Shown here piece after piece: positions 1-23,515 of a stretch of 64,000 bases of DNA. Within the stretch, counting starts at the first letter, position 1. Every line of letters starts with the position of its first letter. The notes beneath the pieces are model-generated. The model had not been told where the DNA came from and did not search any database. It saw only the letters and a list, made by a program, of their open reading frames with translations. The stretch comes from Collinsella aerofaciens (GTDB taxonomy: Bacteria > Actinomycetota > Coriobacteriia > Coriobacteriales > Coriobacteriaceae). A program made the translations under genes and the position numbers. The DNA is taken from positions 62,001 through 126,000 of the forward strand of contig NZ_OY725712.1 of the NCBI RefSeq assembly GCF_963360655.1, given 5' to 3'.

Positions 1-41
1 GCGAAGATGCGCAGCGCCGACGCGGATGCGGGGGCCGTCAC
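1..41 (-). CDS. start of next cobalamin operon gene, possibly cbiJ (partial)
   Basis: A GTG codon at 41 overlaps the cbiC stop as GTGA, the same four-base coupling used between many genes of this operon. Only about 13 codons are visible before the window edge; they read VTAPASASALRIF. The LRIF stretch would fit the start of the first Rossmann strand of a precorrin-6A reductase (CbiJ), a step otherwise missing from the cluster. The identity is inference from context only. Confidence 0.3.
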   Translation of the reverse strand, partial: MTAPASASALRIF

Positions 42-6643: not shown

Positions 6644-7188
6644 CTTGTAGGTCCTTCGCCTTTCATCCACACGGGAATCCCGCATACCACTTCGACAGCG
6701 CAGTCGGCCAGCGCCGACACGCCCGCGTTCACGCGCGCGAGCGCGCGCCTCCATACCTCGGTCCCCTCATCGTAGCGCATCCCATCGGCGAACACGTCGA
6801 CGGTGACAACCACCGTATACGCAGCGGCCTGAGCGAGCCGTTCGATGCCTCCGAGCACCTCGCGCGCCACAGCGTCGGGGTCACGTGGGGACAAGCCGGC
6901 TTCCGCGAAAAGCTCGTTTGCAACCAGGTTGCCCACGTCCTCCAAAAGAAGCGTGCAGCCGCGCGGAAGCCCGGGCACTGCGGCGCCCACGTCACGCGTG
7001 CGCTCGAGGGTGGAAAACCCCTTGCCCTCGCGCAGCGCCCGATGGCGCGCGATGCGGCGGGCGCCCTCTTCCCCGAAGGGCTCCATCGTTGCCAGGTACA
7101 CGCGAGGGCCGTCGTGCCCGAGGCACAGGGACTCGGCGTAGGCGCTCTTACCGCTCGCGGCGGCGCCGATAACGAACGTCACCGCCAT
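6640..7188 (-). CDS. cobU: adenosylcobinamide kinase / guanylyltransferase CobU
   Basis: Bifunctional enzyme that phosphorylates adenosylcobinamide and then transfers GMP to it. The 182-residue protein has the P-loop VIGAAASGKSAYAES (6-20), YLATMEPFGEE (31-41), and RRIARHRALREG (44-55) holding the histidine expected to be guanylylated. LLLEDVGNLVANELF follows at about 80-94, then VVTVDVFADGM, and CGIPVWMKG ends the fold. This is the intact CobU of the locus, in contrast to the degenerate CobU half fused to CobC downstream. ATG at 7188 overlaps the cobT stop by 10 bases behind a GAGG-containing ribosome site. Confidence 0.94.
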   Translation of the reverse strand: MAVTFVIGAAASGKSAYAESLCLGHDGPRVYLATMEPFGEEGARRIARHRALREGKGFSTLERTRDVGAAVPGLPRGCTLLLEDVGNLVANELFAEAGLSPRDPDAVAREVLGGIERLAQAAAYTVVVTVDVFADGMRYDEGTEVWRRALARVNAGVSALADCAVEVVCGIPVWMKGEGPTR

Positions 7189-8327
7189 TTCCCGGCCTCG
7201 AAATGCTCGTAAGCAGCCATGCCAGTCGCCGTGAACGTCTTCCCATCCCGGTACACGCACAGCGCCGAATCCAGAAGGGGCAGATACGCCATGGCGCCCG
7301 CGCCCTCGCCCAAGTGCATGCCTGCGTCGAGGGGTGCCTTTATGCCGAGCTCGCGAAGGAGCTCCTGGCTTGCGGGTTCGCTTGATGCGTGGGTGCCCAC
7401 GAGGTAGCCCAAGGCGTTGGGGCACAGGCGCGCCGCGCACAGAGCCGCCGTGCAGGATATGACCCCGTCGAGGAGTGCCGGCGCCTTCGAGGCCGCGGCC
7501 CCCAGGTAGAAGCCGCACATCGCCGCAATGTCGAAGCCGCCCACCTTCGAGAGCACGTCGATCGGGTCGGCGGGATCGGGCGAGTTCGCGTCGATAGCGC
7601 GCTCGACCACGTCGCGCTTGCGCGCGAGCGAGGCGTCCGAGAGCCCCGCGCCGCGCCCGACGAGGCTCCGCGCGTCCGCCCGGATGAGCACTGCGGCCAC
7701 CGCCGCCGAGGTGGTCGTGTTGCCGATGCCCATCTCGCCCGCGGCGAGAAGGCGCACGCCGGCGCGGGCAAGCCCGCACGCGACGGCGATTCCGACCTCG
7801 ATCGCGCGCACGGCCCCATCGCGAGACATAGCGGAGCCGTGCGCGATGTTGCCGCTCCCCCGCCGCACGTTCGCGCGCACCATGCGCGCGTCTTCTATGC
7901 CCCGGGCCATACCCACGTCGACGGGCACGACCTCGGCACCCGCGAACGCCGCCATGCGGCAAGCGCTTGTGGCCCCCTCGCACATGTTGCGCGCGACGGC
8001 TCGCGTCACGTCTTGCCCGCTTTGCGACACGCCTTCGGCAACGACCCCGTTGTCGGAGAAGAATACCGCGAGCGCACGGGGGAACTCGGCCACCTCGGCG
8101 CTCCCCTGAGCTGCGGCGATACACGCGACGGCGTCTTCAAAGTCGCCCAATCCCCCCAAGGGGTGCGCGATGGAGTCCCACGCGGCGTACGCGGCGGCGC
8201 GGGCGCACTCGTCTGCGGGCGCGATCCGGGAGAGCGCGGCTTCGAGCACGGCGCCCGGCGCCGACGAGAACGCGCGCTCGACTTCCTCGCGGATGCAGGC
8301 AAGCGCGGTTTCGGTTGCCTCAGCCAT
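7179..8327 (-). CDS. cobT: nicotinate-nucleotide:benzimidazole phosphoribosyltransferase CobT
   Basis: Makes the alpha-ribazole phosphate (lower ligand nucleotide) from nicotinate mononucleotide and a base. The 382-residue protein has VFFSDNGVVAEGVSQSG (about 89-105), GEMGIGNTTTSAAVAAVL in the centre, and MHLGEGAGAMAYLPLLD near the C-terminus. The glutamate in that last motif corresponds to the catalytic base of the family. ATG at 8327 follows GAGAGGAG and overlaps the cbiA stop by 8 bases. No gene for making dimethylbenzimidazole (bluB or bza) is visible in the window, so the lower base is unknown and may be scavenged or made elsewhere. Confidence 0.95.
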   Translation of the reverse strand: MAEATETALACIREEVERAFSSAPGAVLEAALSRIAPADECARAAAYAAWDSIAHPLGGLGDFEDAVACIAAAQGSAEVAEFPRALAVFFSDNGVVAEGVSQSGQDVTRAVARNMCEGATSACRMAAFAGAEVVPVDVGMARGIEDARMVRANVRRGSGNIAHGSAMSRDGAVRAIEVGIAVACGLARAGVRLLAAGEMGIGNTTTSAAVAAVLIRADARSLVGRGAGLSDASLARKRDVVERAIDANSPDPADPIDVLSKVGGFDIAAMCGFYLGAAASKAPALLDGVISCTAALCAARLCPNALGYLVGTHASSEPASQELLRELGIKAPLDAGMHLGEGAGAMAYLPLLDSALCVYRDGKTFTATGMAAYEHFEAGKWR

Positions 8328-9702
8328 GCCGTCTCCTCTCTGCGAACGACGCTGCGGCAGACGCGAACGCGCGCGCAACGTCGGGGTTCGCAGGATAGTA
8401 CACATGCGGGAAGCCCGCAACCAGGGACGGGGTAGTCGTCATGCACGGCCAGCCCTTGTCGCGCCGGGGCTTTTGCGCCCAAAAGTCGCCGCCCGGGCAG
8501 GTGGACTGCCAGTAGTGGAACTCGTGCGCGCGGATGCGTGTGCCGCGCGGCCCGTAGAGCCCGTCGCGTTGGGAAGTGAGCTCCACGTACCCGAAATGGG
8601 ACAGCCTTCCCCCGTTCTCGCTTGCGCCCTCAAGGGCGCCCACAACAGGCCAGCGCCGCCCCTCGCTATCGGAGATTTCGCGCTGCAGGTACAGAAACCC
8701 ACCGCATTCGGCAACCGTCGGCATGCCGGATTCCACCGCACGCCGCACCGCCTCGCGCATCGGCGCGTTCTCGGAGAGCTGCCGCACATGGAGCTCCGGG
8801 TAGCCGCCTCCCAGATAGAGGGCGCTTGCCCCCCGCGGCAACTCGCTATCACACAGGGGGCTGAAAAAGGCCAGCTCGCAACCCAGGTCCTCGAGCGCGC
8901 GCAGGTTCTCCTCGTAGTAGAACGAGAACGCCTCGTCACGCGCGACGGCGACGATGGGCCGCGCTCCCGCGATCGGCTCCAACCGGTAAGGATCCTCGCG
9001 GATATCGGGTGCCGTCGCCGCTATTTCGAGCAAGCAGTCGACGTCGACGCTCTTTTCCACCAGCTCGGCCATCTTGTCGATGCGCGCGGAGAGCTGCTCG
9101 ACCTCGTCGGCGGTCACAAGCCCCAAATGCCGGCTTTCGAGCGAGAACGCATCGTCGGCGGGGATATTCCCCAAAACCGCGACACCCGTGTGCTTCTCGA
9201 TCGCAGGCTTCGCGTAGGCGCAGGCAGCGGCGCTCGTCTTGTTCAGCACGACGCCGCGCACGTTCGCACAAGGCAGGAACTCGGCGATGCCGCGGATTAC
9301 GGCGGCGAGCGATAAAGACGCCCCGCGCCCGTTCACCACTAAAACGACCGGCGTTTCCGTGTCGCACGCAACCTGGTAGCTGCTCGCGTCGGCCACGCCG
9401 GGCGCCATGCCGTCGTAGAAGCCCATGGCCCCCTCGAGCACCGCGACATCCGCGCCCGCGGCGCCGCGTGCGAGCAGGGCGCGCAGCGTCGGGGCGTCGG
9501 TGAAGAAGCCGTCTAAGTTGCCCGAGCGCGCACCCACGACGCGGCGATGAAAGAGCGGGTCAATGTAGTCGGGGCCGCATTTGAAGGCCGCGCATGCGAG
9601 GCCGCGGCGCGCAAGCGCGCGCAGGAGCGCGCACGTAACGACCGTCTTGCCGCTCCCGCTCGAGGGCGCAGCGACCATGAAGCGCGGGATGGTCGTGCTC
9701 AC
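8320..9702 (-). CDS. cbiA: cobyrinic acid a,c-diamide synthase CbiA (CobB)
   Basis: ATP- and glutamine-dependent amidation of the a and c side chains of cobyrinic acid. The 460-residue protein has an N-terminal P-loop ATPase domain (VAAPSSGSGKTVVTCALL, residues 9-26), then FKCGPDYIDPLFH and VLEGAMGFYDGM. The C-terminal glutamine amidotransferase domain has its cysteine in TVAECGGFLYLQ and a distal histidine near RAHEFHYW. GTG at 9702 overlaps the cbiET stop as GTGA, giving a start close to the P-loop as in other CbiA proteins. Domain order distinguishes it from CobQ, which is encoded separately at 1192-2691. Confidence 0.94.
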   Translation of the reverse strand: MSTTIPRFMVAAPSSGSGKTVVTCALLRALARRGLACAAFKCGPDYIDPLFHRRVVGARSGNLDGFFTDAPTLRALLARGAAGADVAVLEGAMGFYDGMAPGVADASSYQVACDTETPVVLVVNGRGASLSLAAVIRGIAEFLPCANVRGVVLNKTSAAACAYAKPAIEKHTGVAVLGNIPADDAFSLESRHLGLVTADEVEQLSARIDKMAELVEKSVDVDCLLEIAATAPDIREDPYRLEPIAGARPIVAVARDEAFSFYYEENLRALEDLGCELAFFSPLCDSELPRGASALYLGGGYPELHVRQLSENAPMREAVRRAVESGMPTVAECGGFLYLQREISDSEGRRWPVVGALEGASENGGRLSHFGYVELTSQRDGLYGPRGTRIRAHEFHYWQSTCPGGDFWAQKPRRDKGWPCMTTTPSLVAGFPHVYYPANPDVARAFASAAASFAERRRHG

Positions 9703-11048
9703 CGGGCGCCGCCTTCCCCACCTGCACCACGCGCGCTGACGAGGAACACGGGGTTTTGCGCCTTCATAAGATGGTGCGAGCCTACAGCCTCGGCGCGGGC
9801 GGCCGAAACCTGGCAAGCCTCGAACCCCTTAAAGCGCGAACTCGAGAGGAGCGCGCACGCCTCGGTGAGCGTCTCAACGGTGACGCATGGCACGCACAGG
9901 CGAACCTGCGAGTTCTTCTCGAGCGCCACCTCCACGATGGAGGGAAGCTCGCCCGCGCTCCCGCCGACGAACACGGCGTCGGGGACGGGCAGTATCGCGA
10001 GCGCTTCGGGGGCGACACCGGGGACCGCATGCACGTTGCCGCACCCGAATGCATCCGCGTTCTCTCGGATGAGCCGCACGCCGGCCGCGTTGCGCTCGAC
10101 CGCCCATACCGACCCCGCTCGCGCGACGAGCGCCGCCTCGATCGACACGCTCCCCGTGCCGGCGCCGACGTCCCACACGGTGTCGGTCGCGGTAAGGCGC
10201 AGCTTCGCGAGCGCGACGGCGCGCACCTCCTGCTTGGTCATGGGAACGTCGCCGCGGATGAAGAGCTCGTCGGGAATGCCCGAGGAAGCGTACGGCCAGC
10301 GGGAACTCGCGGCGCGGGATGCGCCCGCAGAGTCCGCCGCGGAAGAAGCCGCCGCGGGCGCAGACACGCCGGCCGGCACCTCGGAGGCTGCGCTAGAGCC
10401 CGCAGGCGACCCGGCGCCGCCTGCGAAATCGATAAGCATCACGTTCAAGTCGTCGAACGTCTGACCTGTGATTTCACTTGCGGTCGCGCAGGTGATGCGC
10501 TCGTCGGGGTACGACAGGCGCTCGGCCACCGTCACGCACGCGTCCCCGAAGCCCGCCTGCACAAGCTCGCCCGAAAGCCGCGAGGGATCTTCCCCGCCCG
10601 ACGTGACGAGGAAGAGCTCACCTGCGCGCTCGGCCTCGGCCACGATGTCGCACGCCACGCCGTGAGCGCTCGCGAAGCGCCAATCCTGCCATGGACGCGC
10701 GAGGCGCGCGGCGAGATACGACGCTGAGCTTATGCCGGGAATGACGCGCACGTCCACCTGCGCGTCGCCGGAGAGCGCCTCCACCAGGCGGCGCGCGCCG
10801 CTGAACAGCCCCACATCGCCCGTCATCACGACCACGGCGCGCTGCCACGACGCCGCATCGGTGAGCGCGGCGACGATGTCCGCCGTCTTCACGAGCTCGC
10901 ATCTCACCACGTCGGGCGGCACGTCGATGCCGGCAAGCGCGCGATGAGCGCCGATGACCACGTCGGCGATGTCGATCGCGTCGAGCGCCGCGCGCGAGAG
11001 CAAGTCGGGGTTTCCGGGCCCCGCCCCGATGATCGTTACCTTTCGCAT
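9699..11048 (-). CDS. cbiET: fused cobalt-precorrin-7 methyltransferase/decarboxylase CbiE-CbiT
   Basis: Fusion that methylates C5 and C15 and decarboxylates the C12 acetate side chain, like CobL of the aerobic pathway. The 449-residue product has CbiE first: VTIIGAGPGNPDLLSRAALD at 4-23, VMTGDVGLFSGARRLVEAL, and VIPGISSASYLAARL. An Ala/Ser/Gly-rich linker follows (about residues 203-246). CbiT comes last: GIPDELFIRGDVPMTKQEVR, SAM site VWDVGAGTGSVSIEAALVA, and VFVGGSAGELPSIVEVAL. ATG at 11048 overlaps the cbiH stop by 13 bases. The linker is longer and more repetitive than such fusions need, but both catalytic halves look intact. Confidence 0.94.
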   Translation of the reverse strand: MRKVTIIGAGPGNPDLLSRAALDAIDIADVVIGAHRALAGIDVPPDVVRCELVKTADIVAALTDAASWQRAVVVMTGDVGLFSGARRLVEALSGDAQVDVRVIPGISSASYLAARLARPWQDWRFASAHGVACDIVAEAERAGELFLVTSGGEDPSRLSGELVQAGFGDACVTVAERLSYPDERITCATASEITGQTFDDLNVMLIDFAGGAGSPAGSSAASEVPAGVSAPAAASSAADSAGASRAASSRWPYASSGIPDELFIRGDVPMTKQEVRAVALAKLRLTATDTVWDVGAGTGSVSIEAALVARAGSVWAVERNAAGVRLIRENADAFGCGNVHAVPGVAPEALAILPVPDAVFVGGSAGELPSIVEVALEKNSQVRLCVPCVTVETLTEACALLSSSRFKGFEACQVSAARAEAVGSHHLMKAQNPVFLVSARGAGGEGGAR

Positions 11049-11779
11049 GGAATCTCCCGATACCCGCGCGGCGTGACCATACGGCCGCCTACGAGCTTCG
11101 TGTCCGCGTTGCCGACGAACACGGTGGTGAACATGTCGGCGTCGATCTCCCCCAGCTCGGAGAGCCTGCACATGCCCGACTGCTGCCCCTCGCGCCCGAT
11201 GTTGCGTACCCAGCCGCAGAGCGTGTCGGGGGCCTTCCATTCAAGCATAATCTTCACCGCGCGCGAGAGCCTGTCGGCGCGCTTTCTGCTGCGCGGGTTG
11301 TACAAACAGATGCAGAAGTCGGCGCTCGCGACGGCGGCGAGCCTGCGCTCGATGATCTCCCACGGCGTGAGCAGGTCAGAGAGCGACACGACCGCAAAGT
11401 CGTGGGCAAGCGGGGCGCCGAGCACCGCCGACCCGCTCTGAGCCGCGGTGGCCCCGGCGATAACTTCCACGTCTACATCGGGGTAGTCCTCCGCAAGATC
11501 CAACACGGGGCTCGCCATGCCGTACACGCCCGCGTCACCGCTGCACACGAGCGCCACGGCTTCTCCGCTCTGCGCGCGCGAAAGCGCCAGGCGGCACCGT
11601 TCGACCTCGTGCATCATCGGCGTCGCGAGATGCGCCGCGTCGGGCACGGCGGCGAGCGCGAGCTCCACGTATTTCGTGTACCCCACAACGATGTCGGCCG
11701 CCTCGAGCGCGCGCCGAGCCGCAATCGTCATGCCGTCGGGGCCGCCTGGGCCGATCCCCACCACGAAGAGCTTTCCCAT
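11036..11779 (-). CDS. cbiH: cobalt-precorrin-3B C17-methyltransferase CbiH
   Basis: SAM-dependent methylation at C17 with ring contraction. The 247-residue protein has the tetrapyrrole methylase pattern: LFVVGIGPGGPDGMT (4-18), ADIVVGYTKYVEL (29-41), VALVCSGDAGVYGMASPVLD (about 75-94), VIAGATAAQSGSAVLGAPL, and FCICLYNPRSRKRADRL. These last elements are typical of CbiH/CobJ rather than other ring methylases. The ATG at 11779 has AAGGAG five bases upstream and overlaps the cbiG stop as TGATG. A GTG one codon earlier sits too close to the ribosome site. Confidence 0.95.
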   Translation of the reverse strand: MGKLFVVGIGPGGPDGMTIAARRALEAADIVVGYTKYVELALAAVPDAAHLATPMMHEVERCRLALSRAQSGEAVALVCSGDAGVYGMASPVLDLAEDYPDVDVEVIAGATAAQSGSAVLGAPLAHDFAVVSLSDLLTPWEIIERRLAAVASADFCICLYNPRSRKRADRLSRAVKIMLEWKAPDTLCGWVRNIGREGQQSGMCRLSELGEIDADMFTTVFVGNADTKLVGGRMVTPRGYREIPCER

Positions 11780-12912
11780 CACCGCTCCTTAAACGAAAGT
11801 TTGATAGTTACCTTGGAAAACGCGACGGTCACGCCGCCGTGAGCGAGCTTCGGGAAGATAAGCTTGCCCCCGTCCGCGAGCGCCGTGCGCTCGCACACGT
11901 TGTCGACTCCCACCGTCGCGCGCACGAAATCAGATGGCGAAACGCTGCCTTCGACCTGCGACAACTCCTCTGCGGAATACGTCGCAAGCGGGATATTGCG
12001 CGCGCGGCAGAAGGCGAGCAGACCCTCCTCGTGCGCCTTCACGTCGATCGTCGCCGCCTCGCGCACGGCCGAAGGCGAGATGCCCGCCTGCCCGCACGCG
12101 AGAAGAAACGCCTCCCCGATCGCTTCGGCGCACGCACCGCGACGGCACCCTATGCCCGCAACGATGCAGGGCACGACAAGGCGAAGCGGCTCGGGGGCCG
12201 GCGCCTGCGCCCGCACGCCCGCCGGCTTCCCCGTCTCACCGGCGGGCACGACCTCGCCCGTTGTCTCCGCCGCGCGAACGGACGCACCTGCATTCGCGCC
12301 AGCAAACGGCGACACGACGATATCGGCACGAGCGCGGTCGGACGCAATGTCAACCCCCTCAGGCGGCTGTCCCGAAATCGGTATGTCGGAATAGAGCGCC
12401 ACGCGCCCGCCCGAAAGCAGCCGCGCCGACACTCGCTTGATGGCCTCGGGATTCGAAACGGCGAGCCCCGCACAGCGCGCCCACGTATCCACCGCCCACA
12501 CGCCGCGGACGTCGGTCGCCGTAGTGATGACGGGGATGGCCCCTGCCGCGCGTGCCACAGTTTGCGCAAGCTCGTTCGCACCGCCCAAATGCCCCGACAA
12601 AAGCGGGACGGCAAAGCGCCCCGCCTCGTCGATCACCACAACCGCGGAATCGGTTGCCTTCGAGGCGACATGCGGCGCGATCGCCCGCACGGCGATGCCC
12701 GCCGCGCCCACGAACAGAAGCGCGTCCGACGCTTCCCACGCGAGCGCCGTCCATGCGCGCAGGTCGGCCTTCCCCTCGCCGAACCCGCGCGAAACGGAAA
12801 CGTCCCAGCCAGGGTCATCTTCACCTGTCTGCGCGCAATCGGAAAGCGCGCGTGCGGTGCGCTCCGCCAACGCATACCCCCTCTCAGTGAACGCTATGCA
12901 GGAAACCCTCAT
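11779..12912 (-). CDS. cbiG: cobalt-precorrin-5A hydrolase CbiG
   Basis: Opens the delta-lactone of cobalt-precorrin-5A and releases the C20 fragment as acetaldehyde, a step specific to the anaerobic pathway. The 377-residue protein has the N-terminal and central CbiG region (LLFVGAAGIAVRAIAPHVAS near 65-84, VPLLSGHLGGANELAQ near 103-118, VITTATDVRGVWAVDTWA) and a C-terminal CbiG_C domain (CIVAGIGCRRGACAEAIGEA, LATYSAEELSQVEGS, and a final GGKLIFPK). An Ala/Pro-rich linker of roughly 45 residues joins the halves. The start lies immediately next to the stop of the truncated cbiL upstream, with no spacing. Confidence 0.94.
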   Translation of the reverse strand: MRVSCIAFTERGYALAERTARALSDCAQTGEDDPGWDVSVSRGFGEGKADLRAWTALAWEASDALLFVGAAGIAVRAIAPHVASKATDSAVVVIDEAGRFAVPLLSGHLGGANELAQTVARAAGAIPVITTATDVRGVWAVDTWARCAGLAVSNPEAIKRVSARLLSGGRVALYSDIPISGQPPEGVDIASDRARADIVVSPFAGANAGASVRAAETTGEVVPAGETGKPAGVRAQAPAPEPLRLVVPCIVAGIGCRRGACAEAIGEAFLLACGQAGISPSAVREAATIDVKAHEEGLLAFCRARNIPLATYSAEELSQVEGSVSPSDFVRATVGVDNVCERTALADGGKLIFPKLAHGGVTVAFSKVTIKLSFKER

Positions 12913-13146
12913 CTAGCGCACCACCATCGTCGAGAAGTAGCTGCCCCGATCGGGCACATCATCGAGCGAGCGGTACACGCGCTCGCCCGGAAGCCCACAG
13001 TCCTCTACGAGCTCGGCACCGTCGAAGGCGCCCTCCTCGCGAAGGATGCGCTTCGTGTCCGCAAGCGAGCGGCGCGCCTTCATGACCACTTTCGTCCCCG
13101 GCCAGCCGATTGCGCGGCGCACGCCGTACAGCACGCCTTTACTCAT
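12913..13146 (-). pseudogene. cbiL: internally deleted remnant of cbiL (cobalt-precorrin-2 C20-methyltransferase)
   Basis: A 77-residue frame that begins MSKGVLYGV, the usual opening of CbiL/CobI just before its GVGPGDP motif. It then passes directly into PGTKVVMKARRSL, a CbiL-type region near the C-terminus, and ends DRGSYFSTMVVR, the usual CbiL tail. The SAM-binding and catalytic core, about 150 residues of a normal 230 or so, is missing. The frame stays open, the ATG at 13,146 has a GGGGGCG ribosome site and overlaps cbiD by 8 bases, and cbiG follows without a gap. This indicates a clean in-frame internal deletion. Such a product could not bind SAM. A separate small protein is possible but unlikely given both matching ends. 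Confidence 0.75.
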
Positions 13147-14323
13147 ACGTCGCCCCCAATTCCCCGATGACTGCATCGGCGCCCGACGTGCGGAAAAGCT
13201 CGCGGCGCTCGGCGTCGAACACGACCGCGGCGATGTCGCATGCGCCCGCCGCGCGGCGGCGCAACCTGTCCTCGATTGCCGCAGCGAGCGAGGCGCGCGC
13301 AGCGTCCCCCACGCCGGCGGCCTCGATTACCTCGAGCGCCGCCGTGGTCGTGACCGACGACATGATCTCGCGCACGGTCTTCGCGCCCGCGCCGGCCAAG
13401 GCCGCGTGAGCGGCCAGAATCTCCGCGCGGCAGTCGGCGGTACGCGAATGGGTGTCCATGATGCCGCCAGCGACCTTCACCAGCTTGCCGATGTGTCCCA
13501 CAAGAAGGACATTGGTGAATCCCTCGCGAACGCAGCAATCAATCGCATCGCCCACAAAGTTGGAGATGAAGACCACCGGCGCACCGTTTAGGTGGAAATG
13601 CCCCGAGATGAACTGCCCGCCGTAGTTGCCGGGCGTGAGCACGACTCCGCGCCGCCCCATAGCCGCATGCTGCCGGATCTCGAGCTCGATGCTGTCGCGC
13701 AAGGCAGCGAGGCTGCGCGGCTCGACGATGCCCGTCGTGCCCAGGATGGAGATGCCGCCCTCTATCCCCAGGTGCGGGTTGAAGGTCTTTTCGGCAAGGG
13801 CCACACCCTCGGGTACCGAAATCGTCACAGCAATATTTCCAGAAAAGCCGTGCGCGGCGCACACCTCACGCACCGCCGAAGTAATCATCGCGCGCGGCGT
13901 CGCGTTGATGGCGGCCGCCCCCACCGGCTGCTCGAGCCCGGGCAACGTCACGCGCCCCACGCCCACGCCGCCATCGACAGAAACTTCCGATTCGTGCGCG
14001 GGCACGTCCTTGCTGCCCGCAGTACCCGTGCCCGACCCCACATGTTCCACGCGCGCGTACACGAGCACGCCGTCGGTCACATCGGCATCGTCGCCTGCGT
14101 CCTTTCGCACGGCGCACTGGGCGCACCCCTCGCCGATGCATGCGTCGACCACGTTCGCCTCGACGGGCAGCCCGCCGGGGGTGACGATCGACACGCGGCC
14201 GACGGGCTTTCGTGACAAGAGCATCTCGCAGGCCGCCTTCGCCGCGAGCGCGGCACAGCTCCCCGTGGTGTAGCCACAGCGCAGGCGGGTCGTCCCGGTA
14301 TATATGTAGTGCTCGAAGGCCAC
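13139..14323 (-). CDS. cbiD: cobalt-precorrin-5B C1-methyltransferase CbiD
   Basis: SAM-dependent C1 methylation in the anaerobic corrin pathway. The 394-residue protein starts near LRCGYTTGSCAALAAKAA (residues 13-30), the CbiD hallmark. It continues with VSIVTPGGLPVE, GVGRVTLPGLEQPVGAAAIN, ISVPEGVALAEKTFNPHLGI, and GGISILGTTGIVEPRSLAAL; LLVGHIGKLVKVAGGIMDTH lies near the C-terminal third. GTG at 14,323 lies one base after the cbiF stop. Frames reaching further upstream run through cbiF antisense and have no homology. Its stop overlaps the cbiL remnant start. Confidence 0.95.
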   Translation of the reverse strand: MAFEHYIYTGTTRLRCGYTTGSCAALAAKAACEMLLSRKPVGRVSIVTPGGLPVEANVVDACIGEGCAQCAVRKDAGDDADVTDGVLVYARVEHVGSGTGTAGSKDVPAHESEVSVDGGVGVGRVTLPGLEQPVGAAAINATPRAMITSAVREVCAAHGFSGNIAVTISVPEGVALAEKTFNPHLGIEGGISILGTTGIVEPRSLAALRDSIELEIRQHAAMGRRGVVLTPGNYGGQFISGHFHLNGAPVVFISNFVGDAIDCCVREGFTNVLLVGHIGKLVKVAGGIMDTHSRTADCRAEILAAHAALAGAGAKTVREIMSSVTTTAALEVIEAAGVGDAARASLAAAIEDRLRRRAAGACDIAAVVFDAERRELFRTSGADAVIGELGATYE

Positions 14324-14324
14324 G

Positions 14325-15116
14325 CTAGCTGCTCGCCTTCCGATACCCCGTGGCAAACGAAGGGTCGTAAAGCTTGCTACGCTCGTACGACTCCGCTTGC
14401 GCGCCGTCGTGCGCAAGTCCGCCGCGAGCTCCGAGCACGCGGCCCACCACCACGAGCGCCGTGCGGTCGATGCCCTCTCGCGCGCCCGCATCGGCGAGCG
14501 TGCCCACTGTGCAGCGCACCACGCGCTCCTCAGGCCAGGTCGCCTTGTACACGAGCGCCGCCGGCTCATCGGAGCTGCGGCCCGCGGCCAAAAGCTCGGC
14601 GGAAAGCTCGGCGAGCATACCCGAGCTCAGGAAGATGACCATAGTCGAGCCGCTTTCCGCCATGGCGCGCATGCCCTCGCCCGCGGGCATGGGGGTGCGT
14701 CCGGAAAGCCGCGTGATCACGACCGACTGGCTGATTCCCGGCAGCGTGTATTCCTGGCGAAGCGCCGCCGCGGCACCGCAAAAGCTCGACACGCCGGGCA
14801 CCACCTCGTAGTCCACGCCGCGCGCGTCGAGCGCGTCCATCTGCTCCTGGATGGCGCCGTACAGGCACGGGTCGCCCGTGTGCAGGCGCACCACTTCCTC
14901 GCCCCGCGCATCTGCCGCGCACATCACGTCGAGCACTTCCTCCAAGGTCATGTGCGCGCTGTCGTAGACGACGCAGGATTCCTTGCACTCGGCGAGCAGC
15001 TCGGGGTTCACAAGGCTCCCCGCCCAAACGACCACGTCGGCCGCGCGCAGAAGGCGCGCCCCGCGCAGCGTGATAAGGTCGGCGGCGCCCGAGCCAGCGC
15101 CAACGATATGAATCAT
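14325..15116 (-). CDS. cbiF: cobalt-precorrin-4 C11-methyltransferase CbiF
   Basis: SAM-dependent methylation at C11. The 263-residue protein has IHIVGAGSGAADLITLRG (2-19), ADVVVWAGSLVNPELL (26-41), VVRLHTGDPCLYGAIQEQMD (about 75-94), VVPGVSSFCGAAAALRQEYT, and STMVIFLSSGMLAELSAELL, all features of CbiF/CobM. This is the first gene of the leftward operon. ATG at 15,116 is preceded by GGGAAGGGAAGG. The 3' half overlaps nothing, and cbiD follows after one base. The tail DPSFATGYRKAS is also typical. Confidence 0.95.
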   Translation of the reverse strand: MIHIVGAGSGAADLITLRGARLLRAADVVVWAGSLVNPELLAECKESCVVYDSAHMTLEEVLDVMCAADARGEEVVRLHTGDPCLYGAIQEQMDALDARGVDYEVVPGVSSFCGAAAALRQEYTLPGISQSVVITRLSGRTPMPAGEGMRAMAESGSTMVIFLSSGMLAELSAELLAAGRSSDEPAALVYKATWPEERVVRCTVGTLADAGAREGIDRTALVVVGRVLGARGGLAHDGAQAESYERSKLYDPSFATGYRKASS

Positions 15117-15247
15117 CCGAGCCTTCCCTTCCCGTTTCTCATCGCAACCGTTGACGCCGCCATTCGCGCAGCGGACAAAACACGGCGCCTGCGGCGGCAA
15201 TCGGCGCAAATACGCAGGCAGGAGGCGCAATGCCGCCCGCCCTGGCT
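15117..15247 (-). other. leader of the leftward cobalamin operon, no riboswitch recognised
   Basis: This G+C-rich stretch lies between cbiF and the divergent promoter. Read on the minus strand it does not show the conserved cobalamin-riboswitch core (GGGAA, GGTG, CCACTG-like or AAGCCAG) that is clear on the other strand. A minus-strand TATGAT lies at 15,272-15,277, overlapping the plus-strand -10 box, but I find no convincing -35 for it. Confidence 0.3.
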
Positions 15248-15276
15248 TTGACACGTTCACAAGTGCCCACTATCAT
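15248..15276 (+). promoter_or_regulatory. sigma-70 type promoter of the cbiK-btu transcript
   Basis: TTGACA at 15,248-15,253 and TATCAT at 15,271-15,276 are separated by exactly 17 bases, close to the consensus. Transcription would start near 15,283 and read through the riboswitch about 70 bases further on into cbiK. Confidence 0.75.
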
Positions 15277-15350
15277 AGTAAAAGTTTCGGCAACGAGCAT
15301 ATGACAATCGGATAAAAGGAAATGACCGGCGCGGCGCCCGCACAGCCCGC

Positions 15351-15455
15351 GCTGGCTTGCGGAGGGAACCAGGTGGGAATCCTGGGCAAGGGACATTACT
15401 GTGTAGGACGCGCAGGCGAACCGCCTCGCGCCCCAAGCCAGACTGCTTCGCCTTT
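15351..15455 (+). promoter_or_regulatory. cobalamin riboswitch, short (class II-like) form
   Basis: The core GGAGGGAACCAGGTGGGAAT at 15,361-15,380 continues through CCTGGGCAAGGGAC and ATTACTGTG, matching the conserved GGGAA, GGTG, CC and ACTGT positions of cobalamin riboswitches. A B12-box-like CAAGCCAG (15,434-15,441) pairs with CTGGCTTG (15,352-15,359), eight base pairs closing the element. The peripheral helices between ACTGT and the B12 box are very short, as in class II variants. A CACGGC-GCCGTG hairpin at about 15,460-15,474 follows without a U-run. Control of translation is therefore more likely than termination, but the expression platform is unproven. It precedes cbiK by about 120 bases. 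Confidence 0.8.
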
Positions 15456-15574
15456 TCCTCACGGCATCGCCGTGGCGTTAGCTCCTTGTGAACCCCGAGG
15501 GGCGCGCTTTTCTTTCGCTTGTGCCGACAAGCAACTGTCGCCGGGGGACCGGCAAACCGAGGAAAGGAAAAACC

Positions 15575-16501
15575 ATGTCCGACCAGATGTCACGCCGCGG
15601 CTTCATGGGCGCCGCAGCAACCGGAGCATTCGCGCTCGCCGGAGTCGCGCTCGCGGGCTGCTCCAGCACCTCCGGGAGTTCCGAGAAATCGAGTGAAAAG
15701 GAGAAGGCCGTGAAGCCGGTCATCCTCGTCACGAGCTTCGGCACGAGCTACAACGACTCGCGCCACATCACCATCGGCGCCATCGAAGACGCTATCCGCG
15801 AGAAGTACTGGCAGGACTACGACATCCGCCGCGCCTTCACCGCGCAGATCATCATCGACAAGCTGAAGAAGCGCGACGGCATCACGATCGACAATATGAC
15901 CGAGGCGCTCGACCGCTGCGTGGAAGACGGCGTGAAGGAAATTGTCGTGCAGCCGACGCATCTCATGGCTGGCCTGGAATACGCCGACGTGAAAGACGAG
16001 CTCGACAAGTACGCCGACAAGTTCGACAAGATCTCGCTCGGCGACCCGCTGCTCACCTCCGACGACGACTACAAGAAGGTGGCCGCAGCCATTAATGAGA
16101 ACATGGCGTCCTTCGACGACGGCAAGACGGCGCTGTGCCTCATGGGCCACGGCACCGAAGCCGATTCCAACGCCGACTATGCCAAGATGCAGGAAGTGTT
16201 CAAGAACGAGGGCTTGACGCAGTTCTTCGTCGGCACCGTCGAGGCTGAGCCGACCTGCGAGGATGTTATCGCCGCCGCGAGCGCCGCAGGGTACAAGAAG
16301 GCCGTGCTCGCGCCGTTCATGGTGGTCGCGGGCGACCACGCGAACAACGACATGGCAGACGAGACCGACCCCGACAGCTGGGCTGCGAAGTTCGTGGCCG
16401 CTGGCTTCGAAGTGACGTGCCTGCTCCAGGGTCTGGGACAGAACGCCGCGGTCGACGACATCTACGTCTCGCACGTGGACGACGCCATCGCCAAGCTGTA
16501 A
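15575..16501 (+). CDS. cbiK: CbiK-type cobaltochelatase with Tat/lipoprotein signal (predicted surface-anchored)
   Basis: Belongs to the anaerobic sirohydrochlorin cobaltochelatase family: VILVTSFGTSYNDSR, IVVQPTHLMAGLEY, CLMGHGTEADSNADY and FMVVAGDHANNDMA supply the conserved histidines. The 308-residue protein begins MSDQMSRRGFMGAAATGAFA, a twin-arginine (SRRGFMG) leader. It ends in the lipobox LAGC at about residues 29-32, followed by a Ser-rich spacer. It should therefore be a lipoprotein on the outer face of the membrane. An exported CbiK is known in Desulfovibrio (CbiK-P), where a role in metal or haem handling was proposed. No cytoplasmic copy is seen here. ATG at 15,575 follows GAGGAAAGG. 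It is the first gene after the riboswitch. Confidence 0.88.
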   Translation: MSDQMSRRGFMGAAATGAFALAGVALAGCSSTSGSSEKSSEKEKAVKPVILVTSFGTSYNDSRHITIGAIEDAIREKYWQDYDIRRAFTAQIIIDKLKKRDGITIDNMTEALDRCVEDGVKEIVVQPTHLMAGLEYADVKDELDKYADKFDKISLGDPLLTSDDDYKKVAAAINENMASFDDGKTALCLMGHGTEADSNADYAKMQEVFKNEGLTQFFVGTVEAEPTCEDVIAAASAAGYKKAVLAPFMVVAGDHANNDMADETDPDSWAAKFVAAGFEVTCLLQGLGQNAAVDDIYVSHVDDAIAKL

Positions 16502-16510
16502 ACTCGCCGC

Positions 16511-16619
16511 GCACGGGGGCGCCGGTCGCGTCCCCGTGCAACGGGCATGCGCCTTCCCCGACCGACGGCGCATGCCCGTTGCATTCGCATCCCGCCCGCC
16601 CACCGCACGGGGCGGGCGG
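16511..16619 (+). repeat. three consecutive G+C-rich hairpins between cbiK and the next gene
   Basis: GCACGGGG (16,511) pairs with CCCCGTGC (to 16,539). GCAACGGGCATGCGCC (16,538-16,553) pairs perfectly with 16,567-16,582. CCGCCCGCCC pairs with GGGCGGGCGG up to 16,619. None has a T-run, so they are not standard terminators. They may block RNA decay or lower read-through from cbiK to the transporter genes. Confidence 0.6.
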
Positions 16620-16646
16620 TCGAAGCGATTGAAAGGAACCCCCTCC

Positions 16647-17180
16647 ATGTTGAAGAAAACCCTCGCCTTCGCCCTGTCAGCGGCGCTTTTTGCGTTCTCG
16701 CTCGCCGGCTGCGGCGGAAATTCAATCGACAGCGCAAAGGCAAGCGATGCCGATTCCCAGGAAAAGACCGAACAGGCGGCCGATGCGCCCGAGGGCGCAA
16801 GCGCTGCCCCCATCACCGCCGACAAGGTGGCCGACGGCACCTATCCGATCACCGTAGATTCCAGCTCGAACATGTTCAGGATTGTGGACGCCCAGCTCAT
16901 CGTGGAAAACGGCTCCATGCACTGCGTGATGACACTTTCCGGCACGGGCTACGGCAAGCTCTTCATGGGCACGGGTGACGAGGCTGCCACCGCGAGCGAG
17001 GCCGACTTCATCCCCTATGTGGAAAACGCGGAAGGCAAGTACACCTACGACGTGCCCGTTGAAGCGCTCGACGAGGACACCGCCTGCGCCGCGTGGAGTA
17101 TTAGAAAAGAGCAGTGGTACGACCGCACGCTCGTGTTCGAATCCGCCGGCGTCGATCTGCGCGCCGACGCACTGAAGTAA
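16647..17180 (+). CDS. lipoprotein with NEAT-like beta module, unknown ligand
   Basis: A 177-residue protein with a signal peptide (MLKKTLAFALSAALFAFSLA) and lipobox LAGC. An acidic Ala/Glu/Asp spacer (about 30-55) precedes one globular domain of about 110 residues. That domain, with DGTYPITVDSS, LIVENGSMHCVMTLSG and YDVPVEALDEDTA, resembles the N-terminal module of the next gene product: both share IV-[EK]-[ND]-G, a T-[LW]-S-x-x-x-Y-x-K pattern and P-V-x-L-D-E-D. The pattern recalls NEAT haem-binding domains, but that is inference. It lies between the chelatase and the importer, so a tetrapyrrole-binding role is plausible. ATG at 16,647 follows GAAAGGA. Confidence 0.7.
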   Translation: MLKKTLAFALSAALFAFSLAGCGGNSIDSAKASDADSQEKTEQAADAPEGASAAPITADKVADGTYPITVDSSSNMFRIVDAQLIVENGSMHCVMTLSGTGYGKLFMGTGDEAATASEADFIPYVENAEGKYTYDVPVEALDEDTACAAWSIRKEQWYDRTLVFESAGVDLRADALK

Positions 17181-17184
17181 CGCC

Positions 17185-18756
17185 ATGCGGTCGATTCTTC
17201 CCAAGGGGGAAAACAGGAAGCGCCACAGCATCGCGGCGCGCGCGATTGTCTGCGTTCTCGTCGCCCTGCTCGCGCTTCCTTTCGCGGGGTGCAGTGCGAG
17301 CCCGAACGCGACCGGTGGCACGGCGGGCTCTCAGGAATACACTGTGAGCGTCTCGCTTTCCGGTGGGTCAGGGCGTGCAAGCATCGCCTCGCCCACCACA
17401 ATTGTGAAGGATGGCGACACCTACACCGCGACCATCACCTGGTCGAGTTCGAACTACGACAAGATGACCGTCGACGGCGTGGACTACGCGCCCGTAAACG
17501 ACGGCGGCAACTCCACGTTCGAGATACCCGTCACGCTCGACGAGGACATCGCCGTGTCGGCCGAGACCGTCGCCATGTCGACGCCGCACACCATCGACTA
17601 CACGCTCTACTTCGACTCATCCACCATGAAGGAGAAATCGGGCGACGAAGCAAGCGGCGGCTCCCCTGCGAGAACGGCTTCAAGCGCCGCGGCCGACTTC
17701 CACAACGCCGATTTGGGCTGCGGCTGGAAGCCGACGGGGACGCTTCAGCTTGAATACGCCGAGCACTTCACTGTCGACGAGTTCGAAGGCGGCTTGCGGC
17801 TTATCTGCGTTTCGAACGGTGAGCGCTTCCTCGTGGTACCGCAAGATGCGAAGGTACCTGATGGGTTGAGCTCTGACATCGCGGTCATAAGACGCCCCGC
17901 CGACAAGGTGTACCTCGTGTCGTCGGCAACGATGTGCTTGGTCGACGCGCTCGATGCGAACGACAATATCTTCATGTCGGGCACGAAGGCCGACGATTGC
18001 TCGGTCGCGGGCTTCAAAAGCGCACTCGAAAGTGGGGCGATCGCCTACGGCGGCAAGTACAGCGCGCCCGACTACGAGCGAATATCGGCCTCGGGCTGCA
18101 CGCTCGCCATCGAGAACACCATGATCAACCACACGCCCGATGTGAAGGAAAAGCTGCAGAAACTCGGGCTCGTCGTGCTCACCGAACAGTCGTCGAGCGA
18201 GCCCGAAGCACTCGGGCGCCTCGAGTGGATTAAGCTTTTCGGCGTCCTGTTCGACAAGGAAGACGAGGCCGCGCACCTGTTCAACGAGCAAAAGGCCCGC
18301 GTCGAGCAAACGTCGAGGCTCGCGTCGTCAGGTAAAACCGTGGCGTATTTCTACATTAACTCGAACGGGGCCGCCGTCACGCGGCGGGCGGGCGACTACG
18401 TGGCGCAGATGATCGAGCTTGCAGGCGGCAACTACGCGCTCGATGACGCGCAGACGGCGTCGACGTCAGGTTCGTCAGTAACGCTCGAAATGGAGCGCTT
18501 CTACGCGACGGCGAAGGATGCCGACATCATCGTCTACAACGGCACCATCGACGAATCGGTTGCCACCTTAAACGACTTCGTAAGCAAAAACGCGCTATTG
18601 TCGCAGTTCAAAGCCGTGAAGAACGGCAACGTCTGGGTCACAAGCGCCGACATGTACCAGCAGATGACTTCTACCGCCGACATTATCGACGAGCTGCACG
18701 GGGCGTTCACCGGCGATGACGCGAGCGACTTCCATTATCTGAGGAAGCTCGGCTAG
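17185..18756 (+). CDS. substrate-binding lipoprotein of a BtuF/FecB-type importer with N-terminal NEAT-like module
   Basis: A 523-residue lipoprotein. Basic N-region MRSILPKGENRKRHS, hydrophobic core, and lipobox FAGC near residue 36. Residues about 50-150 form a beta module related to the preceding lipoprotein (TIVKDGDTYTATITWSSSNY, FEIPVTLDEDIAV). Residues about 210-520 have the class III solute-binding fold used for B12, haem and siderophores (ISASGCTLAIENTMINH, LGRLEWIKLFGVLFDKEDEA, VAYFYINSNGAAVTRRAGDY, FKAVKNGNVWVTSADMY). It starts 4 bases after the preceding stop and is followed 4 bases later by the permease, so it is the binding protein of that ABC system. Fold-level evidence does not fix the ligand; the riboswitch points to a corrinoid or related tetrapyrrole. 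Confidence 0.8.
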   Translation: MRSILPKGENRKRHSIAARAIVCVLVALLALPFAGCSASPNATGGTAGSQEYTVSVSLSGGSGRASIASPTTIVKDGDTYTATITWSSSNYDKMTVDGVDYAPVNDGGNSTFEIPVTLDEDIAVSAETVAMSTPHTIDYTLYFDSSTMKEKSGDEASGGSPARTASSAAADFHNADLGCGWKPTGTLQLEYAEHFTVDEFEGGLRLICVSNGERFLVVPQDAKVPDGLSSDIAVIRRPADKVYLVSSATMCLVDALDANDNIFMSGTKADDCSVAGFKSALESGAIAYGGKYSAPDYERISASGCTLAIENTMINHTPDVKEKLQKLGLVVLTEQSSSEPEALGRLEWIKLFGVLFDKEDEAAHLFNEQKARVEQTSRLASSGKTVAYFYINSNGAAVTRRAGDYVAQMIELAGGNYALDDAQTASTSGSSVTLEMERFYATAKDADIIVYNGTIDESVATLNDFVSKNALLSQFKAVKNGNVWVTSADMYQQMTSTADIIDELHGAFTGDDASDFHYLRKLG

Positions 18757-18760
18757 CACC

Positions 18761-19801
18761 ATGAGAAGCCGACTTTCCATGGCATACGACGAATCGGGGC
18801 GCGTCGCACGGTGTCGCGTCGTGACGGCGCTGCTCGCTGTTGTCCTCATCGTGCTCGTCGGGGCCAACCTGTGCATCGGGAGCGTGCTCGTGCCCGCAGA
18901 CCACATCCCCGGCATCCTTTCGGGCGGCGCGGCCAATTCCATGGAAAGCCAAGTCATCTGGGAGATTCGCCTGCCGCGCGTGCTTTCAGCCGTGCTTCTC
19001 GGCGGGGCACTTTCGCTCTCCGGGTTCCTGCTGCAGACGTTTTTCAACAACCCCATCGCCGACCCGTTCATCTTGGGCGTCTCCTCGGGCGCAAAGTTCG
19101 TCGTCGCGCTTACGATGATCGTGCTTCTGGGCGCGAACCAGGCCATGTCCTCGCCGGCCATGGTGGCCGCAGCGTTTCTGGGATCGCTTATCACCATCGG
19201 CTTCGTGCTCCTCATCGCACGGCGCATAAGTTCCATGGCCATGCTCATCGTGGCGGGCGTCATGGTGGGATACATCTGCTCGGCGGCGACGAACTTTCTC
19301 ATCGCCTTCGCCGACGACCAGTCCATCGTGAACCTGCACAACTGGTCTTTGGGTAGCTTCTCGGGTTCGAGCTGGGACGACATCGCGGTCATCGCGGTCG
19401 TGGTGATCACCGTGAGCGCATGCGTATTCGCGATATCGAAGCCCCTTTCCGCCTTCCAGCTGGGAGAAGCCTACGCGAAAAGCGTCGGCGTGAACGTCGC
19501 ACGCTTCCGCGTGGTGCTCGTCCTTCTAGCGAGCATGCTCTCCGCCTGCGTGACCGCGTTCGCTGGTCCGGTGTCGTTCGTAGGCATCGCGGTTCCGCAT
19601 CTCGTTAAGTCGGCGCTGAAGTCGTCGAAGCCCATCCGCGTGATTCCTGCGTGCTTCTTGGGAGGCGCCATCTTCTGCGCGGGCTGCGATTTGATCGCGC
19701 GCACGCTGTTCTCCCCCGTCGAGCTTTCCATCAGCGCCGTCACCGCCATCTTCGGCGCGCCGGTGGTTATCGCACTCATGTTGAAGAAGCGGGTGAGGTA
19801 G
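18761..19801 (+). CDS. btuC: FecCD/BtuC-type ABC permease
   Basis: Integral membrane permease of 346 residues with about nine to ten hydrophobic helices. Family features are WEIRLPRVLSAVLLGGALSL near residue 67-86, FFNNPIADPFILGVSSGAKF near 95-114, and PVSFVGIAVPHLVKSALKSS near 270-289, the last being the coupling region that contacts the ATPase. The BtuC family imports cobalamin, haem and iron siderophores. The start at 18,761 is 4 bases after the binding-protein stop; ATG at 18,779 is an alternative. Its stop touches the ATPase start directly. The ligand is inferred from the riboswitch and island context. Confidence 0.88.
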   Translation: MRSRLSMAYDESGRVARCRVVTALLAVVLIVLVGANLCIGSVLVPADHIPGILSGGAANSMESQVIWEIRLPRVLSAVLLGGALSLSGFLLQTFFNNPIADPFILGVSSGAKFVVALTMIVLLGANQAMSSPAMVAAAFLGSLITIGFVLLIARRISSMAMLIVAGVMVGYICSAATNFLIAFADDQSIVNLHNWSLGSFSGSSWDDIAVIAVVVITVSACVFAISKPLSAFQLGEAYAKSVGVNVARFRVVLVLLASMLSACVTAFAGPVSFVGIAVPHLVKSALKSSKPIRVIPACFLGGAIFCAGCDLIARTLFSPVELSISAVTAIFGAPVVIALMLKKRVR

Positions 19802-21118
19802 ATGGGGAAATTCGTGCCGCAGCCCAAAACGCTCGGAAGGGACATTCCGTGCTTAGACAGTCCTAAGCTCGCACGAAAGCGCCAGAAGGCACTTTCGGCT
19901 CGTGCGGAACTGCACGCGGAACGACTCCTCCGAGCGGAGTCGAACCTCGAAACCCCGGTCGAAACGCAGGCTGACGGAGCGCCGCTTTTCCGCATAAGCG
20001 ACCTGTCGGCGGGCTACGACAAGAAGGTCGTAGTCGAAGGCGTCGATCTGGAGGTTCGCGCGGGCGACGTCGTGGCGCTCATCGGGCCGAACGGCTCGGG
20101 CAAGTCGACCATCTTGAAAACCATCACGCGCCATCTGGCACCGCTTGCCGGCGCGGTCGAGCTCGACGGGCGGGAGATTTCCCGATGGAAGACGGCGGAA
20201 TTCGCAAGGAACCTTGCCGTTATGCTGACAGATCGACCCCGGACCGAGCTCCTCACCTGCCGCGATATCGTAGAGGCGGGAAGGCATCCCTACACCGGGC
20301 GAATGGGAACACTTTCGCCTGACGACCATAGTCGGGTCGACGAGGCCATGAAAACCGCACATGTGGAAGAGCTCGCCGAGCGCGACTTCATGCAGATAAG
20401 CGACGGGCAACGCCAGCGCGTCATGCTCGCACGCGCCATCGCGCAGGATCCGCGTGTGCTCGTGCTCGACGAGCCCACATCGTATCTCGATATCCGCTAC
20501 CAGATCGACCTGCTGCGAATACTTCGCCACCTTACGAAATCGCGGAATGTGGCTGTCATCATGTCCATCCACGAACTCGAGCTCGCGCAGAAAAGCGCCG
20601 ACAAGGTGATTTGCGTGAAGGACGGTCGGGTCTTCCGCGCCGGCGCACCCGAGGACATATTCACGCGCGAGACGATTGGCGAGCTCTACGGCCTTCAACA
20701 TGGCACCTTCAACGAGCACTTCGGCAGCGTGGAAATTGGGCGCCCACACGGCGATGCGCACACGTTCGTCATCGCCGGCGCAGGTACGGGGTCAGCTGTG
20801 TTTCGCCAGCTCATCCGGCAGGGCAAGGCGTTCTACGCGGGCATTCTGCACGAAGGGGACATCGACTGCGAGCTCGCGCGCGACCTGGCGACGGAATGCG
20901 TGGCCGAGCGCGCCTTCGAGCCGATCAGGGATAAAACCATAGCCCGCGCCAAAGAGCTCCTCGTCCACTGCGCGCGCCTTATCGTGTGCCCCGCTGCCTT
21001 CGGCACCATAAACGCCCGCAACGCAGAGCTCGTCGAGTTCGCACGATCGCATGGTATCGAGGTCATGCAAGCGTGCGAAGGCGCATCGGAGGATTCCCAT
21101 TTGGAGTGGGAAGGATAA
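19802..21118 (+). CDS. btuD: BtuD/FecE-type ABC ATPase with extra C-terminal domain
   Basis: A 438-residue ATPase. An N-terminal extension of about 60 basic and acidic residues precedes the nucleotide-binding domain. That domain has Walker A IGPNGSGKSTIL, signature MQISDGQRQRVMLARAIAQD (SDGQ in place of SGGQ) and Walker B VLVLDEPTSYLD. After the usual end near residue 305, a further 130 residues follow, including FVIAGAGTGSAVFRQLIRQG, FYAGILHEGDIDCELARDL and a hydrophobic strand at LIVCPAAFGTINARN. As I recall, comparable C-terminal domains occur on some archaeal and anaerobe B12-type ATPases; their function is not known to me. It is the last gene of the riboswitch transcript and of the island. 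Confidence 0.88.
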   Translation: MGKFVPQPKTLGRDIPCLDSPKLARKRQKALSARAELHAERLLRAESNLETPVETQADGAPLFRISDLSAGYDKKVVVEGVDLEVRAGDVVALIGPNGSGKSTILKTITRHLAPLAGAVELDGREISRWKTAEFARNLAVMLTDRPRTELLTCRDIVEAGRHPYTGRMGTLSPDDHSRVDEAMKTAHVEELAERDFMQISDGQRQRVMLARAIAQDPRVLVLDEPTSYLDIRYQIDLLRILRHLTKSRNVAVIMSIHELELAQKSADKVICVKDGRVFRAGAPEDIFTRETIGELYGLQHGTFNEHFGSVEIGRPHGDAHTFVIAGAGTGSAVFRQLIRQGKAFYAGILHEGDIDCELARDLATECVAERAFEPIRDKTIARAKELLVHCARLIVCPAAFGTINARNAELVEFARSHGIEVMQACEGASEDSHLEWEG

Positions 21119-23416: not shown

Positions 23417-23493
23417 TGGTAGCCCGTACCAGATTCGAACTGGTGATCTCCGCCTTGAGAGGGCGGCGTCCTAAACCGCTAGACGAACGGGCC
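23417..23493 (-). tRNA. tRNA-Glu (anticodon CTC), promoter-distal copy
   Basis: The minus-strand sequence folds as a full tRNA: acceptor GGCCCGT with ACGGGCT, D-arm, anticodon stem CCGCC/GGCGG around loop CTCTCAA (anticodon CTC, reading GAG), T-arm with GTTCGAATC, and an encoded CCA. It is 77 nucleotides, identical to the copy 22 bases upstream. Confidence 0.95.
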
Positions 23494-23515
23494 ATAAGCC
23501 TCAGCAGAAAAGAAG

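Follow-up and report, generated by a model that had tools for sequence, protein, structure and literature searches.

A predicted surface chelatase and ABC importer operon of Collinsella aerofaciens as a candidate route for early tetrapyrroles into corrin-ring synthesis

Introduction

Several gut and oral bacteria encode genes for corrin-ring synthesis without the steps that lead to its starting molecule (Roper 2000, cited in PMC6593275; PMC6461909), and organisms of this kind were defined as tetrapyrrole precursor salvagers by Shelton et al. (PMC6461909). A requirement for B12 despite seemingly complete B12 genes was noted for Collinsella aerofaciens and four Bacteroidales, and a precorrin-2 auxotrophy was suggested (Rodionov et al., PMC6593275). 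Shelton et al. (PMC6461909) also describe P. gingivalis as being without the steps to precorrin-2; IhtB/FetB of this species has been called a haem protein, is hardly characterised and is not Fur-regulated (PMC10913741). Here we describe a 64,000-nucleotide stretch of a C. aerofaciens genome ("the window"; contig 1, positions 62001-126000 of a 2.3-Mb genome that is 99.94% complete). Between window positions 15575 and 21118, five genes on the forward strand encode an exported CbiK-type chelatase, a lipoprotein, a substrate-binding protein, a FecCD-type permease and an ATPase, and this operon and a divergent cobalamin cluster both start from one region of about 450 bases.

We consider it rather probable, though far from certain, that the operon is a surface system, controlled by a B12 riboswitch, through which the corrin pathway receives an early tetrapyrrole in ready-made form. 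When B12 is low, the operon would be switched on and two NEAT modules would catch a macrocycle of the sirohydrochlorin class outside the membrane, where the anchored CbiK would insert cobalt into it. The binding protein (family Peripla_BP_2), permease and ATPase would then import the product, cobalt-sirohydrochlorin (cobalt-factor II), for conversion into a cobamide by the enzymes of the divergent cbi/cob cluster. In this scheme we infer which ligand is bound, in which direction it flows and that cobalt goes in ahead of import. An earlier note on this DNA had imagined a surface unit that binds an external tetrapyrrole, handles its metal at the cell surface and imports the product. Predicted export signals, NEAT folds and conservation under B12 riboswitches support that idea, and the comparative data sharpen it, as they suggest that the product feeds corrin-ring synthesis.

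Results

A single CbiK with predicted export signals

The window CbiK matches the Pfam CbiK family (4.9e-79; 265.8 bits at a cut-off of 26.2) and falls short of the NCBIfam equivalog score (226 versus 400 bits). Its matches in the PDB include 1qgo (1e-43), FetB 9b86 (4.7e-38), which is the same protein as IhtB and matches it in the printed leader, and CbiKP 2xvx (8e-33). Every CbiK sequence that covers the positions Glu89, His145 and His207 (Salmonella numbering) retains these catalytic residues. The reading frame begins with a twin-arginine leader followed by a lipobox (Table 1). We found no second CbiK or CbiX in the window genome, where CbiX matches fall only within this one CbiK, so that the earlier claim of a sole CbiK-type chelatase with a Tat leader and a lipobox holds genome-wide. 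Among relatives, a crude test detected a leader or signal in 62 of the 66 CbiK frames with room for one and inspection by eye added two more, while the gene start of the remaining two is missing from the available DNA. A location outside the cytoplasm, as had been proposed, is therefore predicted for the window CbiK and for nearly all of its relatives. The CbiK tree resolved no single exported clade (there are two large clades, with Collinsella apart and the references between), and we consequently make no claim on the number of export origins.

Some variants of CbiK were observed along the way. Loci L124 and L173 (L and G denote sampled loci and genomes) carry S-layer homology (SLH) repeats at the CbiK N-terminus, and a CbiK on a Methanosphaera plasmid (L098:7998-8780), which groups with that of L167, is 50% identical to the window CbiK. 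In L045-L052, L054 and L055 (e.g. L049:6011-7456) a cytoplasmic CbiK is fused to a Met8/SirC-like domain; these fusions adjoin a predicted sirohaem-dependent reductase, and the genomes are mostly without HemC.

Both beta modules adopt the NEAT fold in structural models

The lipoprotein and the binding protein each contain a beta module, here called module 1 and module 2, and the two modules are homologous to one another (hhalign 97.7%). AlphaFold models built from alignments of 19 sequences had a mean pLDDT of 95.2 for module 1 and 92.4 for module 2. NEAT domains made up the top 29 matches of module 1 and the top 26 of module 2 when the models were compared with the PDB using Foldseek, and VIA-align gave Z scores to IsdX2-NEAT5 of 10.7 and 12.4, respectively, with unrelated rows well below. 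This comparison had been set beforehand as a check on the suggestion that the two proteins share a NEAT-like module, and as all top matches of both programs were NEAT domains the suggestion is borne out: on these models, both modules have the NEAT fold.

By sequence, the Pfam NEAT family is touched by 12 of 20 members of module 1 and 13 of 20 members of module 2, with a best E value of 1.5e-5. The window itself does not reach the gathering score of PF05031 (15.7 bits versus 32.8 for module 1, no listed match for module 2). A sequence search of module 2 against the PDB gave chance matches only, so its assignment rests on the fold and on the Pfam matches of its relatives. Weaker module-2-like NEAT domains are also found in frames of about 900-1800 aa in Lachnospiraceae-type genomes (G199, G133, G215, G221, G235 and G180).

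The haem-ligand motif YxxxY of the last strand occurs in none of 89 sequences of module 1 and in two of 90 of module 2. Its place is taken by KxxWY in 84/89 sequences of module 1 and by HxxxY in 89/90 of module 2; the match of His85 of module 2 to the haem tyrosine is uncertain, since the registers of sequence and structure may not coincide. From these motifs we consider haem a less probable ligand than a carboxylate-rich or non-haem compound.

The gene set recurs in distant bacteria under B12 riboswitches

When 84,980 species genomes were scanned for the binding protein, 463 relatives were recovered, and the counts that follow refer to the best 80 loci, which come from Lachnospiraceae, Oscillospiraceae, other Clostridia and Treponema. 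CbiK, both modules, binding protein, permease and ATPase occur together in almost all of them (module 1 in 75, module 2 in 77 and CbiK in 67 operons). The co-occurrence that the earlier note proposed to check thus extends well beyond this strain, across phyla. Gene boundaries shift between loci: Roseburia sp. 831b has a single 642-aa lipoprotein holding CbiK, module 1 and module 2 (a Rosetta-stone fusion), and module 2, which Collinsella encodes as a fusion with the binding protein, is elsewhere either encoded separately or part of the CbiK-module 1-module 2 fusion. The binding protein shows weak similarity to IsdE. The final two genes had been named BtuC and BtuD; a FecCD permease and an ATPase are indeed present in that order, but both score under the corresponding NCBIfam cut-offs (210 versus 334 bits and 249 versus 537 bits).

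In a window-only Rfam scan at the gathering score no riboswitch was found. The window leader scored 15.4 bits against Rfam Cobalamin (RF00174; cut-off 31.5 bits; E 0.076 in a 361-nt scan) and reached an E value of 0.045 with R2, a model built from relatives without the window. Applied to more distant relatives, R2 gave 2.4e-4 in L043 and 3.5e-4 in L044, at the same position just before cbiK. The Collinsella element is shorter than a full riboswitch and always lies directly ahead of cbiK; the leader core GGGAA..GGTG..CC..ACTGT is invariant with bona fide riboswitches and conserved across genera. Rfam Cobalamin riboswitches are located immediately upstream in 8/8 first-sampled loci (90-116 bits), ahead of the Roseburia operon (100 bits), and in E. 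eligens and Parabacteroides, the range for homologous operons being 78-116 bits. With a relative-built model, a riboswitch was detected ahead of 65 of the 73 operons having enough upstream DNA. Of the eight operons for which none was detected, L107 and L130 have a riboswitch before cbiK, and in six of the eight CbiK is not directly with the binding protein. What remains of the proposed single B12 riboswitch is therefore a riboswitch-like leader in the right place, supported by R2 and by the relatives, but too divergent to pass the Rfam cut-off.

Two further arrangements were noticed. Parabacteroides (L099:7887-11334) carries, next to cob genes and under a B12 riboswitch, a TonB receptor together with a CbiK whose leader is of the Sec type. 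In L135 (13401-18781), L143 and L146 the importer genes are accompanied by cbiL, by a module 2 anchored in the membrane, by a HemC-CobA-HemD fusion and by one more ABC transporter; this additional transporter, read directly in L135, is an ABC-2-type exporter there, and these gene sets might possibly serve tetrapyrrole export.

The system tracks corrin-ring synthesis

The window genome shows the pattern of a tetrapyrrole precursor salvager, with CbiD, CbiF, CbiG and CbiH present and HemC and the uroporphyrinogen methyltransferase (SUMT) absent; HemA, HemB, HemD and CbiJ lay outside the genome-wide search. HemC was not found in this genome by a search whose control was positive in 11/14. Its TP-methylases, assigned by place and length, are only CbiF, CbiH, CbiE and RsmI, with neither SUMT nor CbiL among them. 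Met8/SirC is likewise absent from the genome; two weak PF13241 matches were rejected, as they sit in pyridine-nucleotide oxidoreductases. In the absence of HemC, SUMT, Met8/SirC and a second CbiK or CbiX, sirohydrochlorin cannot arise inside the cell by known routes, and the sole chelatase must therefore meet it elsewhere.

Two independent samples of genomes indicate that the system goes together with corrin-ring synthesis. Among 65 genomes of the window's family, an exported-type CbiK (E < 1e-75) is present in 18 and CbiD in the identical 18, none of which has HemC; owing to the kinship of these genomes and the adjacency of the genes, this corresponds to a few events and not to 18. In a sample of 150 genomes from the family to which Blautia massiliensis belongs, CbiD is found in 90 and module 2 in 55, all of them within the 90 (hypergeometric 2.6e-17, kinship ignored), and module 2 and CbiD lie within 20 kb of each other in 18 of 48 strong cases. 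Of 50 genomes bearing the operon, 48 encode CbiD too. HemC is absent in 21 of these 50, which belong to other groups than Collinsella, and it is missing in 13/16 operons linked to cbi genes versus 8/34 unlinked ones (P 2e-4). Such close tracking of corrin-ring synthesis would be unexpected for an importer of haem or of finished corrinoids. One side case, G059, points the same way: CbiD, HemC and SUMT are all absent, a related binding protein and permease stand beside a predicted sirohaem-dependent reductase, and a divergent CbiK is encoded on the same contig.

In the divergent cluster (Table 1), cbiG, cbiH, cbiA, cbiB, cbiP and cbiC were recognised by profile matches, and cbiET, cobT, cobS and the cobD-like gene were read from translations.

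Table 1. Features of the operon, the divergent cobalamin cluster and their surroundings (window positions).
Feature	Position	Strand	Evidence or remark
Cobalamin cluster, remainder: cbiG, cbiH, cbiET, cbiA, cobT, cobS, cbiB, cobD-like, cbiP, cbiC	38..12912	-	
cbiL remnant, in-frame internal deletion (229 to 77 aa)	12913..13146	-	intact at same place in L037, L041, L043, L044
cbiD	13139..14569 (ORF limits; gene start uncertain)	-	TIGR00312, 1.2e-116
cbiF, first gene of divergent cobalamin cluster	14325..15119	-	TIGR01465, 1.7e-92
Compact B12-riboswitch-like leader of operon	15310..15450	+	Rfam and relative-built model R2
Exported CbiK (predicted)	15575..16501	+	Tat-type leader SRRGFMG, lipobox LAGC, CbiK domain with three catalytic residues
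Lipoprotein with NEAT module 1	~16647..17180	+	lipobox in sequence
NEAT module 1, KxxWY motif	16821..17141	+	AF2 model, Foldseek, VIA-align
Substrate-binding lipoprotein, NEAT module 2 fused to Peripla_BP_2	17185..18756	+	Pfam 6e-33, C-terminal part
NEAT module 2, HxxxY motif	17335..17628	+	AF2 model, Foldseek, VIA-align
FecCD/BtuC-type permease	18761..19801	+	Pfam FecCD, 5e-81
ABC ATPase with C-terminal extension	19802..21118	+	nearest PRK09536 (corrinoid ABC ATPase), below its cut-off
C-terminal extension of ATPase	20700-21118		common to relatives
Tandem pair of identical-looking tRNA-Glu (ctc) genes	23417-23592	-	

Discussion

Several observations weigh against the supply of an external tetrapyrrole as we propose it. 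HemC is present in 29/50 operon genomes, so replacing a missing precursor is not the sole use of the system; these bearers would have another reason for it, as a supplement or for the cobaltophore cycle discussed below. CbiK is missing from 13/80 operons, and permease and ATPase do not follow in L044. An E. eligens plasmid (L097:5994-7526) encodes a leaderless cytoplasmic CbiK-CbiL fusion next to the same importer, from which a B12 riboswitch separates it; this arrangement suggests import of a metal-free ligand there. FetB/IhtB, the nearest exported CbiK of known structure, has been described as haem-binding, and free sirohydrochlorin in the gut, which our proposal needs, is an assumption. Finally, an in-frame deletion that this strain shares with eight other genomes of its species complex has removed 152 of the 229 residues of cbiL, and the pathway of this strain may be dead at C20 methylation. 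The gene is intact in G006, G015, G042 and G063. The dN/dS of cbiK and the tested cbi genes is 0.11-0.38, versus 0.04 for the neighbouring tetR, and together with the cbiL deletion this may indicate that the cobalamin pathway of this strain is decaying.

Corrinoid salvage would be another explanation for the operon, with cobinamide or B12 taken up in the manner of BtuFCD and with CbiK and the NEAT modules only aiding the binding or remodelling of corrinoids. It would fit the control by B12 riboswitches and a permease and an ATPase nearest to BtuC and corrinoid ATPase models. We nevertheless regard it as unlikely, since the system is confined to builders of the corrin ring (55/55 bearers of module 2 against 90/150 genomes; 48/50 operon genomes), though B12 auxotrophs would need such an importer most, and since it leaves a chelatase with an intact active site, fused to binding modules, unexplained. 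Rather unlikely, too, is a secreted cobaltophore, whereby HemC-positive cells export their own sirohydrochlorin and retrieve it through the importer once CbiK at the surface has loaded it with cobalt, while HemC-less neighbours such as Collinsella use the shared pool. The HemC genes in 29/50 operon genomes speak for such a cycle, as does the expectation that a free tetrapyrrole would bind cobalt outside the cell; L135, L143 and L146 join the importer with cbiL, HemC-CobA-HemD, a further ABC ATPase and a module 2 anchored in the membrane, but these three loci are without CbiK. The cycle itself is also inapplicable to the window genome and to the other HemC-less bearers. If true, it would mean that B12 synthesis begins outside the cell.

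The remaining alternatives concern iron. An external CbiK-like protein could strip or exchange the iron of sirohaem before import, as IhtB is thought to strip haem iron (PMC10913741), and the binding protein and permease that G059, without HemC, CbiD and SUMT, carries beside its predicted sirohaem-dependent reductase would suit this. Class II chelatases such as CbiK, however, are known for metal insertion (PMC7689651), and control is exerted by B12, not iron, which makes sirohaem scavenging distinctly improbable. Acquisition of haem or iron by an Isd- or Iht-like system is suggested by the NEAT fold, by the similarity of CbiK to FetB and by the weakly IsdE-like binding protein. The B12 riboswitches, the strict association with CbiD and the loss of the YxxxY ligands (in 89/89 sequences of module 1 and 88/90 of module 2) argue against it, and IhtB itself is not under Fur regulation (PMC10913741); we consider this very improbable.

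If the operon does supply an external tetrapyrrole to the corrin pathway, it would explain why bacteria with B12-building genes need B12, would move the key metal step of B12 synthesis, the insertion of cobalt, to the outside of the cell and would make a macrocyclic precursor a shared gut nutrient. It would also predict that IhtB/FetB of P. gingivalis serves B12 and not haem. The operon offers a concrete possibility for the missing route of uptake in bearers of corrin genes that lack the starting molecule, and NEAT domains gain a candidate ligand other than haem. A literature search, with most subscription journals outside its coverage, found no paper that joins NEAT domains, CbiK and B12 or that describes this system.

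Compared with the described systems, the window genome resembles the tetrapyrrole precursor salvagers in having corrin genes without early tetrapyrrole genes, but the salvagers tested take up 5-aminolevulinic acid, and no importer of a macrocyclic precursor is named in the consulted passages of that work (Shelton et al., PMC6461909). A similar arrangement of genes is IhtABCDE of P. gingivalis, which also combines a CbiK-like surface lipoprotein (IhtB or FetB, PDB 9b86) with a binding protein, permease and ATPase (PMC10913741). Iht, however, is a Gram-negative system with a TonB receptor, its described parts are without NEAT modules and it is described as a system for haem/iron uptake; no TonB-dependent receptor is found among the genes of the window operon, and no report of B12 control of Iht was found in the literature searched. 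The NEAT haem relays (Isd, IsdX1/X2, Hbp2) share with the window modules their fold, their surface location and the feeding of an ABC importer, whereas the window modules are without YxxxY, are coupled to a chelatase and are under the control of B12 instead of iron. The cytoplasmic cobaltochelatase CbiK (1qgo) belongs to the same fold family and has the same catalytic residues as the window CbiK, which in contrast is predicted to be exported and surface-anchored and scores below the equivalog cut-off. Desulfovibrio CbiKP (2xvx), which is periplasmic, is a precedent for a CbiK outside the cytoplasm, and we know of no NEAT modules or importer that accompany it. The importer, finally, is of the same transporter class as BtuFCD, but differs from it in being found with makers of the corrin ring and together with a chelatase and NEAT modules.

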